This document shows, in pieces, positions 36,220 through 40,662 of a DNA stretch of 64,000 nucleotides (position 1 is its first letter; each line of letters begins with the position of its first letter). The notes beneath the pieces are model-generated. The model was given only the letters and a program-made list of their open reading frames with translations. It had not been told where the DNA came from and did not search any database. The DNA is from Rhodanobacter glycinis (GTDB lineage: Bacteria; Pseudomonadota; Gammaproteobacteria; Xanthomonadales; Rhodanobacteraceae), in contig NZ_FOSR01000014.1 of assembly GCF_900114325.1 (NCBI RefSeq), positions 1 through 64,000 of the forward strand. The letters run 5' to 3'. The position numbers and the translations under genes were made by a program.

Positions 36220-37698
36220 ATGGGCGAGCTTGAGGATCTGACTACGCTGGTGCGCGCGGCCACGCCGCTGCTGGTGATCGAAACGGTGGACGAGCAGCGG
36301 GTGGTGGAATGCTTCCGCCACGTCATCGCGCAGTCGCTGCGCCCGCTGTGGCGCTGGACGCTGACCGACGGCCTGCGCCGGCTCGACTTCGCCGCCGAAA
36401 CCGAGTCGGTGGCGCCCGACGCCACCACCACGCTGGATGCGATCCGCGCCGCCGAAGCGGCCGGTATCTACCTGATGTTCGACTTCCACCCGTTCCTGCG
36501 CTACGCGATGAGCCAGCGCCTGCTGCGCGAAATCGTGCAACGGGAACGCTCGGCGGCGCACACTCTCGTGCTGGTCGGCGCCAAGATCGAACTGCCCGAC
36601 GAACTGGAAGCACTCGCGCTGCGCGTGCCACTGTCGCTGCCCGACCTGAAGGAACTGGCCGGTATCATGCGCGGCGAAGCGGTGGCCTGGCAGCGCGAGC
36701 AGGGCCGCAAGCTGGAAGTGGACAACGAGGCCGCGCGCACCATCGTGCGCAACCTGCTCGGCCTCACCGCGCCGGACGCGCGGCGCATCGTGCGCAAGCT
36801 GATCTACAACGACGGCGCGCTCGGCCAGGCCGATCTGCCGGTACTGATGCAGTCGAAGTTCGACCTGCTCAACCGCTCCGGCCTGCTGCACTACGAATAC
36901 GCCACCGCCAGCTTCGCCGACATCGCCGGCGTCAGCCACGTGCGCGAATGGGTGCAGCGTCGCCGTGCCGTATTCCTGGCTGCCACACCCGATCCCGTAC
37001 TCGACCCGCCCAAAGGCGTGTTGCTGCTCGGCGTGCAGGGCTGCGGCAAAAGCCTCGCCGCCAAAGCCATCGCCGGCGGCTTCGGCGTGCCGCTGGTGCG
37101 GCTGGATTTCGGCACGCTGTACGACAAGTACCAGGGCGAAACCGAGAAAAACCTGCGCGAAGCCCTGGCCAGCACCGAACTGCTGGCGCCGTGCGTGCTG
37201 TGGATCGACGAGATCGAAAAAGGCCTGGCCAGCGGCGGCGGCGAGGATGGCGGCGTGTCGCGCCGCGTGCTCGGCTACCTGCTCACCTGGATGGCCGAAC
37301 GCAAGAGCAAGGTATTCGTCGTCGCCACCGCCAACGCCGTGCACGAACTGCCCGCCGAACTGCTGCGCAAGGGCCGCTTCGACGAAATCTTCTTCGTCGA
37401 CCTGCCACGCCCCGAGGTGCGCCAGCAAATCTTCGCCCTGCACCTGAAACAACGAAAACTTGATCCCACCAGCTTTGATCTGCCCGCCCTGGCCGCGGCC
37501 AGTGAAGGCTTCTCCGGCGCCGAAATCGAACAAGCCGTCGTCAGCGCGCTCTACGACGCCGCAGCCAGCGAAGGCGGGCTCGACCAACCCACCTTGCTGA
37601 CCGCCCTGGGCAGCACCCGCCCGCTGTCCGTGCTGATGGCCGAGCAGGTCGAGGCGCTGCGTGAATGGGCTCGGGGGCGCTGCGTGGCAGCCGATTGA
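36220..37698 (+). CDS. Ycf46-like AAA+ ATPase
   Basis: A 492-residue AAA+ protein. The N-terminal 240 residues are a helical/Rossmann-like domain specific to the Ycf46 group (ELEDLTTLVRAATPLLVIETVDEQR). The ATPase core has Walker A GVQGCGKS (~residue 271), Walker B CVLWIDEIEKGL (~325), a sensor 1 Asn in VVATANAVHELPAELLRKGRFDEIFF and an arginine finger in RKGRFD. The C-terminal lid carries SEGFSGAEIEQAVVSALYDA. Members occur in cyanobacteria, plastids and many proteobacteria; a role in CO2/carbon or stress responses has been suggested but is not established. Monocistronic; divergent from the dehydrogenase gene. Confidence 0.85.
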   Translation: MGELEDLTTLVRAATPLLVIETVDEQRVVECFRHVIAQSLRPLWRWTLTDGLRRLDFAAETESVAPDATTTLDAIRAAEAAGIYLMFDFHPFLRYAMSQRLLREIVQRERSAAHTLVLVGAKIELPDELEALALRVPLSLPDLKELAGIMRGEAVAWQREQGRKLEVDNEAARTIVRNLLGLTAPDARRIVRKLIYNDGALGQADLPVLMQSKFDLLNRSGLLHYEYATASFADIAGVSHVREWVQRRRAVFLAATPDPVLDPPKGVLLLGVQGCGKSLAAKAIAGGFGVPLVRLDFGTLYDKYQGETEKNLREALASTELLAPCVLWIDEIEKGLASGGGEDGGVSRRVLGYLLTWMAERKSKVFVVATANAVHELPAELLRKGRFDEIFFVDLPRPEVRQQIFALHLKQRKLDPTSFDLPALAAASEGFSGAEIEQAVVSALYDAAASEGGLDQPTLLTALGSTRPLSVLMAEQVEALREWARGRCVAAD

Positions 37699-38153
37699 CG
37701 GCAATGGAAAAGTCCGGCTTGTACGCGAAGTGAGCCATCCGGGGAGGCCCAGAGGGGGCAGCAAATCATTCGCTGACCTGATTGGCGACGATGCTCAGCT
37801 AAAAAAGACCGTTCGCGCTGAGCGTAGCTTGCGTTAGCAAGCGGAGTCGAAGCGCCTACAGCGCGATCACCCTTCGACTCCGGCCCTACGGGCCTACGCT
37901 CAGGGCGAACGGCGAGGCATCGGCTGAACCTTGTCGCTAATCAGGTTCGCCGAACCTCCGAGATCGTCCTCGCTCTCACCACGGATAAACGGCGGCGCGG
38001 CACGCTGGCGCGAAAAGCTGCATGATTAGACGGCAGGTTCAGGCTGCAACACCGATCCAATATGTTGATTCGTGTAGTCATCAACCGACAGACGAGTTCC
38101 AACGACCGGGTTTATGCTGCAGGAATAGGTTGCACTTCGTCATTCAATTTAAG
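37699..38153. other. Gene-free stretch between the AAA ATPase and the cassette array
   Basis: Contains the inverted repeat at 37808-37912; the rest has no protein-like frame. Base composition shifts from GC-rich to AT-richer near 38030, where the foreign-looking cassette DNA begins. An ancestral attI site might lie just left of 38153, but I cannot define one. Confidence 0.55.
37808..37912. repeat. Inverted repeat pair (CCGTTCG..GAGCGTAG type)
   Basis: CCGTTCGCGCTGAGCGTAG...GGAGTCGAAG (37809-37852) is mirrored by CTTCGACTCC...CTACGCTCAGGGCGAACGG (37872-37912), about 40-bp imperfect arms. This is another dispersed palindromic family, here at the boundary of the cassette region. Confidence 0.85.
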
Positions 38154-38599
38154 TTAGCTGCCAACAGATATGTCGCGCCCATACAAATTTTGCCCATTTT
38201 GCAGCCGGCGAGTCCCTATCGCATTTCTTGCACTTTGCGGCTTGTCGGGGACCTTCCGTCCGCCACGCTGCTCCTTCAAGTGCCAGGAGTGCACGAATAC
38301 TTCGTACGCCCCTCGGCGGTGGGAATATCAAACTACACTTGTATCAATTGGCATTGTGTTTGCGGCAATCGCACTACTGTTCGCATCCGAGGTGTTCAGC
38401 ACGCCGTATAGCGGTGCAAAGTTATGGTTCGCGGTTGCTTCGGGCAGTGCGGCCGGGCTACTGTTAGAGTACTTTGTAATAGGCATAGTCCGTTGGCTTA
38501 CGTTGAGCAAGATGCATCTGAGAAAGGTGCGCAGCTAACTATGTCGGTCAACCGGACGCAAATCCCGCTACGCGGTCTTTGCGCCTGTTACCTCAAGCG
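38154..38599 (+). mobile_element. Integron gene cassette 1
   Basis: The cassette starts at the G^TTAGCTG junction (38153/38154) and ends at the G of the next junction GTTAGGC (38599). It contains one ORF starting 16 bp inside and ending in its attC site. The left attC arm CAGCTAAC (38532-38539) is the exact complement of the cassette's own first bases GTTAGCTG, as expected if the circular cassette's attC was cut there during integration. Confidence 0.75.
38170..38538 (+). CDS. Cassette-encoded zinc-ribbon membrane protein (N-terminal ribbon)
   Basis: A 122-residue protein with no family I recognise. N-terminal CPFC (residues 8-11) and CSFKCQEC (~35-42) could form a zinc ribbon. Two predicted transmembrane helices follow (TLVSIGIVFAAIALLFASEVF, LWFAVASGSAAGLLLEYFVIGIV) and a basic tail. 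ATG 38170 lies 16 bp from the cassette boundary with no Shine-Dalgarno, typical of cassette genes read from an upstream promoter. The stop TAA is inside the attC arm. Codon use is less GC-rich than the chromosome, suggesting transfer. Confidence 0.7.
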   Translation: MSRPYKFCPFCSRRVPIAFLALCGLSGTFRPPRCSFKCQECTNTSYAPRRWEYQTTLVSIGIVFAAIALLFASEVFSTPYSGAKLWFAVASGSAAGLLLEYFVIGIVRWLTLSKMHLRKVRS

Positions 38600-38605
38600 T
38601 TAGGC
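38532..38605. other. attC recombination site 1
   Basis: CAGCTAAC at the left and GTTAGGC at the right flank an imperfect stem: GGACGCAAA pairs with TTTGCGCC leaving an extrahelical A, and CCGC-TA-CGCGG forms the tip. Length (74 bp), imperfect dyad with unpaired base and core GTTAGGC fit integron attC sites. It was found by eye; a covariance-model search would confirm. Confidence 0.75.
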
Positions 38606-38837
38606 GTCAGAACAGCATCTTTTTGTTGTTGCATCGCGTGGCTTCGCCACGCGGCTTATTTCTAGCGTTGAAGCTGTAGAAAAAGCCTACAACCTGAAAA
38701 CTTGTATTTACGATGCCCGTGTACGCGGTCCAATAGCGAGTCGCGGGTCGAAATGGACTCAGAATTGAACTGTTGCAGGCAAATTTTAGCTCGTGTTTCG
38801 AGCACTCTTTGACCGCACCATTTTTTCTACAGCCACG
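38600..38837 (+). mobile_element. Probable ORF-less integron cassette 2
   Basis: A 238-bp segment between the GTTAGGC junction at 38599 and the GTTAGGC at 38837. Its attC is degenerate: the right core is perfect but no exact left arm was found (GCCTACAAC near 38690 and TTGAAC near 38770 are weak candidates). It holds a hairpin GCGTGGC-TTC-GCCACGC and no ORF longer than about 20 codons. It could be a promoter- or RNA-bearing cassette, or a decayed one. Confidence 0.5.
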
Positions 38838-38847
38838 TTAGGCCCTT

Positions 38848-39231
38848 ATGGACAGAACTTCGTTCGCTCAACAAATCCATATCGCAATGATCCATGCAAA
38901 CCGCAAACTTAGGTCTGCTGGCTTGCCCGCATCGGTCATGCAAATTTTCATCATCGTCGTGTTTTTTGTGCTTTTGCAGTCGGACTCCAAATATGTGCTT
39001 TGGTTTATGGCCATCGCGCTGCCTGTGTCCATCGCGATATCAACCGCTTTGGCATTTGCTGTTCGCAACGCTTTCAAGCGTCACGCGCCGTCTTGTCCAG
39101 GGTGCGCAAAGCCAATAGGCTTGCTCACTAGGCGCAAAGCACTGGCAACTGGTATGTGCCCAAATTGCCGTAGCGCCCTTTTCGGGCCTAACAACTCCGT
39201 AAGAGACTTCCCGTCAACCCCAGGCGCATGA
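38848..39231 (+). CDS. Cassette-encoded zinc-ribbon membrane protein (C-terminal ribbon)
   Basis: A 127-residue protein of unknown family. Two hydrophobic helices (VMQIFIIVVFFVLLQ, YVLWFMAIALPVSIAISTALAFAV) are followed by a cytosolic zinc-ribbon-like pair CPGC (~91-94) and CPNC (~114-117). This is the same two-helix plus ribbon plan as the cassette 1 protein but in reverse order. ATG 38848 is 10 bp from the cassette start. The last ~15 codons run into the attC site, as often seen in cassettes. Confidence 0.7.
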   Translation: MDRTSFAQQIHIAMIHANRKLRSAGLPASVMQIFIIVVFFVLLQSDSKYVLWFMAIALPVSIAISTALAFAVRNAFKRHAPSCPGCAKPIGLLTRRKALATGMCPNCRSALFGPNNSVRDFPSTPGA

Positions 39232-39281
39232 CGCTTTTGCCTTGGGCTTTCAGGCGACTGCCGGCGATGGTGTTGTCAGGC
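39184..39281. other. attC recombination site 2
   Basis: GGGCCTAACAACTCC pairs with GGTGTTGTCAGGC (11 of 13 bp); the inner stem CCCAGGC/GCCTTGGG leaves one extrahelical A. The 98-bp length is within the attC range. The right core is diverged by one base from GTTAGGC. Confidence 0.65.
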
Positions 39282-39536
39282 GTTGAATGCTGCGTGTCAG
39301 TGCTGCGCGGATCCAACGAGTGTCAGGCTGCATTTCCGTAACCGGTCTTGTTGAGTCGATGCCGCGGACTCGGACCTTTGTATAAACCGCCACAATCACC
39401 TTGCGTAGATGCGCCGCCCGATCCAGCAGCGATGGTCGTGCCGGCCCGGAGGGCCGCATATCCGAGCCGAAGCATGGATGAACGCGTCGAGGCACTATGC
39501 TGCCAACGCCGGCATCCATTTGCTTGAGGCCTTGCC

Positions 39537-39914
39537 ATGAAGACCACCCTTCTCGCGCTGCCCTTCCTGCTCGCCATCGCCTTCGTTGTTTACGCCGAGG
39601 GCAAGCTCACCCCGTTCGCGATCTGGAATGCACTACCTGCGGTGGCGGGCTTCGCCCTGTTGTGGGTTGGCCGGCATGCGCGCCTGGCGGCGTACAGGAT
39701 CGGTTGCGCGATCTTCGCCGTCGTCGCGACGCTCTTCGTGACGCTTTTTCATCTCGCCTGGTGGCTGGACTGGCATGGCACGGCGACGGGTTCTTCCACG
39801 TCGGCGCTGGCTTTCATCTTCGTTCCCATCTGGGCCTGTCTCCTGGCCAGCATCGCCGGGGCATTGGCATGGGGCGTCGCCTGGCTCGTTGACCGGCATC
39901 GCCTCGCCCGATAA
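39537..39914 (+). CDS. Hypothetical small integral membrane protein
   Basis: A 125-residue protein with four predicted transmembrane helices (LLALPFLLAIAFVVYAEG, FAIWNALPAVAGFALLWVG, IGCAIFAVVATLFVTLFHLAWWL, ALAFIFVPIWACLLASIAGALAWGVAWLV) and short loops. No family recognised. GC content matches the chromosome, unlike the cassettes to its left, so it is probably a resident gene. The 255 bp upstream holds no other gene that I can see. Confidence 0.7.
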   Translation: MKTTLLALPFLLAIAFVVYAEGKLTPFAIWNALPAVAGFALLWVGRHARLAAYRIGCAIFAVVATLFVTLFHLAWWLDWHGTATGSSTSALAFIFVPIWACLLASIAGALAWGVAWLVDRHRLAR

Positions 39915-40015
39915 GCCGCGCCACAAATGGACCGACTCAAGGCGGGGACGATACGCTGCCGCAATAACCGGCACATGCGGCATCATCAGCACTCCCACCC
40001 CTGCGCCTGCCTGCC

Positions 40016-40438
40016 ATGCCCAATCTTCCGCCATTCCACCTCGCCTTCCCGGTTAACTCGCTGGCGCAGGCGCGCGCGTTCTATGGCGACCTGCTGGGTT
40101 GTCCCGAGGGCCGTTCCAGCGAGAGCTGGGTCGACTTCGATTTTCATGGCCACCAGATCGTGGCGCACTTGGCGCCCGAGGAAGTGCGCGCCGCCGCCGC
40201 GCATGACGTCGATGGCGACAATGTGCCGGTGCGTCACTTCGGGCTGGTGCTGGAGATGGATGCCTGGCAGGCGCTGGCCGAACGCCTGCAGGCGGCGGGC
40301 ACGCGTTTCGTGATCGAGCCGCATGTGCGCTTTGCGGGGCAGGTTGGCGAGCAGGCCACGATGTTTCTGCTCGACCCCAGCGGCAACGCGCTGGAGTTCA
40401 AGGCGTTCGCCGATCGCACGCAACTGTTCGCGAAGTAG
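40016..40438 (+). CDS. VOC (glyoxalase/dioxygenase-fold) family protein
   Basis: A 140-residue vicinal-oxygen-chelate protein: [29 protein letters not shown] at the N-terminus (His as first metal ligand), [35 protein letters not shown] (second His) and [16 protein letters not shown] (Glu ligand). The metal triad is intact. The substrate is unknown; many such proteins detoxify or modify small molecules. Its stop is 8 bp before the next gene, so they are likely co-transcribed. Confidence 0.9.
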
Positions 40439-40446
40439 GGGCGGCC

Positions 40447-40662
40447 ATGGAAGCGGAAGACCTGCGCAAACTGGTGAATGTGCGCATGCCCTACGGCAAA
40501 TACCAGGGCCGTCTGATCGCCGACCTGCCCGGCGCCTACCTCGCATGGTTCGCGCGCAAGGGCTTTCCGCGCGGCGAGCTGGGCCAGCTGCTGGCATTGA
40601 TGCTGGAGCTGGACCACAACGGCCTGTCGTCGCTGCTCGATCCATTGCGGAAAAAATCGTAA
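40447..40662 (+). CDS. DUF3820 family small protein
   Basis: A 71-residue protein with the family core MPYGKYQGRLIADLPGAYLAWFARKGFPRGELG, typical of DUF3820 (putative quorum-sensing-regulated or nucleic-acid-associated small proteins; function not established). It starts 8 bp downstream of the VOC gene. Confidence 0.85.
   Translation: MEAEDLRKLVNVRMPYGKYQGRLIADLPGAYLAWFARKGFPRGELGQLLALMLELDHNGLSSLLDPLRKKS

Follow-up and report, generated by a model that had tools for sequence, protein, structure and literature searches.

A stretch of lower GC content in Rhodanobacter glycinis raises the question of whether it holds an array of gene cassettes standing without an integrase and, if so, where those cassettes begin and end. 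The initial annotation of the window (the whole stretch of 64,000 nucleotides of DNA that was analysed) had read it as an integrase-less array, or CALIN, bounded on the right at 39281. That observation is confirmed in part and its interpretation is supported in part: the cassettes are real, and their anatomy is other than first read. Very probably, the locus is a decayed cassette array, a satellite of the type of the resident integron that lies far from the integrase. Cassette 1 has kept an intact attC, cassette 2 is reduced to a remnant, an IS1182-type miniature element occupies an R' box, and the attC of cassette 3 is cut by the tail of an IS1111-attC-type element (Table 1).

Table 1. Coordinates of the features of the array and its surroundings, in window positions
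Feature	Position	Strand	Remarks
Segment absent in relatives	37699..40446		Between AAA-ATPase gene and PF12843 gene
Dispersed palindromic repeat, REP-like	37766..37946		Copies of 92% identity on contigs C8, C10 and C23
Cassette 1	38153..38598	+	G/TT boundary at 38153; ORF 38170-38538, 122 aa
Cassette 1 attC	38533..38605	+	Sole intact attC in the window; model R1 45 bits, E 1.7e-9
Cassette 2 remnant	38599..38669	+	Cassette head fused to attC right half
Miniature element, 167 bp	38670..38836		Terminal inverted repeats, 12-bp exact core
Cassette 3 up to the attC cut	38837..39197	+	ORF 38848-39231; homologue in locus L106
Cassette 3 attC R'' (left) arm, GGGCCTAAC	39184..39192	+	Right arm missing
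IS1111-attC-type noncoding tail	39198..39390	-	Transposase gene lost; left edge +/-3

The cassettes, their attC sites and their setting

Cassettes 1 and 3 show the pairing typical of gene cassettes, in which the head is complementary to the left arm of the cassette's own attC. As the initial annotation had noticed, GTTAGCTG at 38153 and CAGCTAAC at 38532-38539 are exact complements over 10 nt, and GTTAGGCCC at 38837-38845 is complementary to the R'' arm of cassette 3. Both of the reading frames that had been claimed are present, and the drop in GC is borne out, with values of 0.486-0.530 in four 500-base intervals (38000-39249) compared to 0.598-0.694 outside 37750-39499.

Rfam at gathering thresholds shows no match in the window, and attC was therefore modelled from resident sites. 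The covariance model R1 was built with a hand-given stem structure from 25 attC sites on other contigs of the same genome, with the window excluded, which makes it a test of the window's attC without circularity. With default filters and E up to 10, the attC of cassette 1 is a strong match and the only one in the whole window. With the filters off, E up to 10 admits 12 matches in the region 37600-39900, the runners-up scoring 8.0, 7.9, and 6.9 bits. The second-joint trace of attC scores 7.9 bits (E 0.5), and the candidate at 39186-39281, which had been claimed as a third site, scores 6.2 bits (E 1.4). The claim of attC sites thus holds for cassette 1 and fails for the site ending at 39281, where attC is confined to the left arm and gives way to insertion-sequence tail, leaving the right boundary at 39281 spurious.

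By default, a CALIN is called from at least two attC sites, according to the account in PMC12444791. Here, one site matches R1 in the window and the other candidates reach at most 8.0 bits, so the term fits the locus in that its cassettes stand without a neighboring integrase and fails on the number of attC sites passing this model. The related statement that no intI is present is correct for contig C25, which carries the window and has only intI matches below the cut-off (80661-81449), but not for the genome, in which contig C20 carries a full intI at 1609-2550 (486.9 bits; cut-off, 265). The cassettes beside this gene run off the start of C20. Across the genome, R1 gives 47 matches at E up to 1 and 43 at E of ≤1e-4; the latter comprise 41 full-length sites elsewhere, the one in the window, and a partial one on C21. 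The 41 sites lie on C3 (15 sites), C4 (8), C11 (8), C20 (2), and C27 (8), and 25 of them trained R1 and so match by construction. The resident chromosomal integron is hence large and split over contigs C20, C3, C27, C4, and C11, with the contig breaks falling inside the array. Given a full intI and 41 other attC matches in the same genome, the locus is better described by the alternative that the initial annotation offered, as an outlier of a distant chromosomal integron. The array would have been derived from, or seeded by, the resident integron, whose integrase may still be able to use the single intact attC; as a mobile unit, the array is probably silent.

Satellite cassette arrays of this kind are carried by about half of the Xanthomonas genomes in PMC12444791. 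As described there, those arrays also place cassettes away from the integrase locus, in the same order (Lysobacterales of NCBI). In contrast to them, the array described here belongs to a host of the family Rhodanobacteraceae, retains only one intact attC, and has two joints occupied by attC-targeting elements.

The array lies between an AAA-ATPase gene ending at 37698 and a PF12843 gene starting at 40447. These flanking genes abut or overlap, with the segment between them absent, in six of 14 same-genus genomes (G002, G004, G006, G008, G012, and G014); one comparison scored only four candidates per genome, and the other eight genomes were not judged. Low attC scores together with ordinary genes conserved in sister genomes, the outcome named beforehand as speaking against the cassette reading, did not occur. 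The interval between the two genes is a variable spot. A glyoxalase-like gene, found at 40016-40438 in the window, adjoins the PF12843 gene in G017 and G027. The relatives examined show no match to 37702-38152 beyond the dispersed repeat, and an empty chromosomal site for the left edge of the array was seen in none of them.

The three cassettes differ in their relatives. Cassette 1 has weak ones, the best showing 32% identity in genome G199, near attC matches of 19.5-21 bits in locus L102. The head of cassette 2 (38598-38640) is 88.6% identical to a cassette start behind an attC in L113, and the attC right half that follows (38637-38669) agrees at every one of its 33 letters with an intact attC in L112. 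The GCGT shared by these two pieces is likely a deletion junction. The left half of this second-joint attC is lost and the site is too damaged for R1, for which reason its identification as attC depends on the 33-letter match. A reading of the middle segment as a plain cassette was rejected, as it consists of the fused cassette remnant and the miniature element.

Cassette 3 occurs as a unit in another array. Its protein has a homologue with 83% identity in G195, a relative in the same family (genus g19), and the DNA from 38836 to 39197 agrees with the intact cassette of G195 in locus L106 at 301 of 362 positions (83%), from the base before GTTAGGCC to CTAACAACTC. Past 39197, the homologue runs into an attC (L106:1440-1496; 66.9 bits). 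The match begins where the miniature element stops and stops where the insertion-sequence remnant begins. No other evidence shows as cleanly as the L106 homologue that cassette 3 is a cassette flanked by an insertion on either side. The last ∼11 codons of the window's reading frame, after about 39197, consist of insertion-sequence letters.

The proteins of cassettes 1 and 3 show only matches below the cut-off in Pfam, NCBIfam, PADLOC, and PHROGs. The two genes are putative small membrane-protein genes that may still be expressed. Both proteins show hydrophobic stretches and paired, zinc-ribbon-like cysteine motifs, located at the start of one and at the end of the other.

IS1182-type elements at attC within the family

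The miniature element at the middle joint sits at the attC R' box, between the GTT at 38667-38669 and the GTT at 38837-38839 (GTTAGGCCC from 38837). An element of 167 bp with 71.9% identity occupies the same place of a complete attC in G233 (R1 match L168:2830-2900; 49.1 bits). The miniature element contains no gene of its own and has its ends and its target, not its interior, in common with IS1182-type elements. Among the 233 genomes of the family, 15 carry the end motif GTTGARGYTGTAGAAAAA, at 33 places in all, compared to none for the backward control among the matches listed. At 27 of the 32 places outside the window, an R1 attC match (E of ≤0.01) has its R' end within 0-2 bases of the junction, as recounted by script. 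The five places without an attC match at the junction are L159, a second tandem copy; L160, which lies behind the trace of another element; and L166, L170, and L126.

Both ends were found for 24 elements, including that of the window: 16 long ones (1746-1801 bp), seven short ones (157-167 bp), and a single one of 723 bp. The right flank begins with GTT in 23 of them and with ATT in one. In each of the 16 long elements, the longest frame runs opposite to the direction of the attC. G030 contains seven insertion-sequence copies with 100% identity over 1750 bp and different right neighbors, and pairs of miniature elements in G191 and G201 are 100% identical at different attC sites. Such identical copies at different sites indicate that the long and the short forms have both moved. 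All five full-length transposases scanned pass the IS1182 model NF033551 with 274.2-316.5 bits (cut-off, 270); a shorter transposase frame in L115 falls below it with 259.6 bits.

Identification of attC at these joints rests on the covariance model, since a stem test on the joined sites is weak (14/24 elements, compared to 15/137 control GTTRRRY sites and 82/1250 shuffles). A wider, transposase-centered set gave 14 of the 23 elements with both ends, three of which have too short a flank, compared to 64/360; the choice of right ends in this set favored a following GTT or AAC, so that its flank column is biased.

Two further arrangements were observed in these loci. L159 contains two identical IS1182-type copies in direct tandem, with GTT alone between them. 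In L170 and L160 (on G201:C32 and G030:C2), a short shared sequence ending in GGAACTCTCC lies in or at attC remnants beside IS1182-type elements, and this sequence is perhaps a third attC-associated element.

The genome of the window shows no match to an IS1182-type transposase. The miniature element would thus have been moved in trans by such a transposase that is no longer found in the genome. Deletions would have followed the insertions, removing most of cassette 2, the transposase gene of the element at the third joint, and the right half of the third attC. The miniature elements reported near class 1 integrons are, by their descriptions, likewise nonautonomous and linked to integrons. Those elements are described as flanking or mobilizing integrons, in contrast to the present one, which sits inside an attC at R'.

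The clade beyond the family and its target

With one transposase as the query, 40 loci were found among the GTDB species genomes; they fall in Gamma- and Betaproteobacteria, apart from a few in bins labeled otherwise. To locate the element ends, a 17-letter core was used that ignores flank letters, and both ends were found at ≥13 of the 17 letters in 23 loci; the other 17 loci, with one end missing, weak, or off the contig, were left out of the flank count. Four of the 23 (L172 to L175) are elements or contigs that also belong to the family set. The same triplet stands on both sides of 21 of the 23 two-ended elements, GTT in 13 cases and AAC in eight, and the remaining two show ATT/GTT and CTG/AAC flanks. 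AAC is GTT read from the other strand, as seen when the transposase gene is oriented the opposite way. Of the 40 loci, 20 contain an attC by R1, and in 15 an attC ends at the edge of the element, lying opposite to the gene in eight and parallel to it in seven; both counts are lower bounds, as R1 was trained on one genome only.

Judged by these joints, an IS1182-family clade inserts at the attC R' box and repeats GTT, the crossover triplet of the integrase. A search for IS1182 together with attC or integron, with subscription papers outside its scope, found no published account of IS1182 elements in attC. The closest comparison is IS1272 of Staphylococcus, a member of the IS1182 family that, according to PMC5678879, targets and replaces inverted repeats without target duplication. 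The clade described here is similar in its transposase family (NF033551) and in its relation to inverted-repeat targets. It differs from IS1272 as described there by splitting the attC at GTT with a 3-bp repeat.

The behavior of IS1272, and the fact that attC is an imperfect palindrome, suggest that the IS1182-type elements might target any palindrome or stem-loop, of which attC would be just one. This is unlikely in view of the GTT or AAC on both sides of 21 of the 23 elements, a set chosen without regard to the flanks, and of the attC at the edge of the element in 15 of 40 loci with a model trained on a single genome. The target is, furthermore, split with a 3-bp repeat and not replaced.

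Specialization on integrons can tentatively be proposed for the clade instead. A widespread IS1182 clade and its own miniature elements would comprise two subgroups with opposite gene orientations, with a transposase that recognizes attC and cuts at the R' GTT of the integrase. The triplet repeat and the purine start of the element (GAGG or GAAG) would leave the upstream attC with a near-consensus R' (GTTGAGG), for which reason this attC may stay recombinable; many of the split attC sites are still scored by R1. If this is true, the element travels at the start of the following cassette and leaves the array unbroken. Integrons would then offer shelter within the genome to two transposase families, unrelated to each other, whose targets lie in opposite arms of attC. 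Recognition of attC by the IS1182 clade would constitute a second, protein-only homing route to integrons besides that of the RNA-guided IS1111 elements.

It is very unlikely that the integrase placed the 167-bp segment and its IS1182-type relatives as gene cassettes in their own right, starting at G/TT. Their position coincides exactly with the attC triplet at which the integrase crosses over, but terminal inverted repeats and a transposase gene are present, and among the matches listed no R1 attC match is seen at the right ends, where a cassette would bring its own attC.

Plasmids show no match to the DNA of 37600-39600. A plasmid link of the IS1182-type transposase (E of ≤1e-60) was dropped, as it led to two Pseudoalteromonas records with 40-43% identity in which neither element ends nor attC were found.

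The remnant at the third joint

The initial annotation had described two cassettes each ending in an attC; the third attC is, however, cut by the remnant of an IS1111-attC-type element. The query 39180-39395 finds similar stretches in 13 of 61 genomes, the window's own included, all of the window's family and with the same left edge at CTAAC. In an alignment of 30 stretches, the similarity starts after CTAAC and about three variable letters in nearly all of those extending to this edge; the letters before CTAAC vary between the stretches as well, and the remainder is common to them. The element thus occupies one fixed place in attC, as is characteristic of the IS1111-attC group, and the intact homologue of cassette 3 diverges at this place.

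A full copy in L061 encodes a 359-aa transposase of the IS110 family (NF033542, 310.7 bits; cut-off, 140), with Pfam concurring on the IS110 type. This full element has the IS110/IS1111 transposase expected of the group, and the window copy is left without the gene. The transposase of the full copies reads away from the attC side, which identifies the shared stretch as the noncoding end downstream of the gene. For a seekRNA that would pair with attC, as is characteristic of the group, this end offers only a covarying stem, with two-sided changes in three of its five inner pairs (16 sequences). Beyond 39390, the similarity of the window to the IS1111-type element stops. A reading of 39185-39390 as a mobile attC-bearing unit that seeds arrays was dropped, as the full copies carry an IS110-type transposase.

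The IS1111-attC group is reportedly treated in earlier works by Tetu and Holmes (2008) and by Post and Hall (2009). Members such as ISKpn4 and ISPst6 show the same layout and the same attC target in the account of PMC11187229. The elements found here resemble that group, as described there, in the IS110/IS1111 transposase, the insertion at one end of attC, and the long downstream noncoding region; in contrast to it, the window copy is the noncoding end alone, without the transposase. The IS1111-type element would have arrived by its RNA-guided route. The genome of the window shows no match to its transposase, and with neither of the two transposase types matched there, present mobility is unlikely for both elements, although an empty search result is weak proof by itself.

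It is highly improbable that the locus is simply a CALIN with its right end at 39281 and two or three cassettes still intact, a reading that the two exact arm-to-head complementarities and the lower GC would suit, given that only one attC passes R1, that 39198-39390 is a dispersed repeat forming part of an IS110-type insertion sequence in full copies, and that the window and the intact homologue of cassette 3 part at 39197. Because the reading of arrays depends on locating attC, an element inserted at R' or directly behind R'' masks some sites and mimics others, which is how the initial annotation was misled.

Genome G010 contains five copies of the noncoding end (L061, L073, L081, L086, and L089), in elements that are 98.9-99.7% alike over about 1.56-1.58 kb. 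Each of these five near-identical full elements sits behind a different CTAAC arm.
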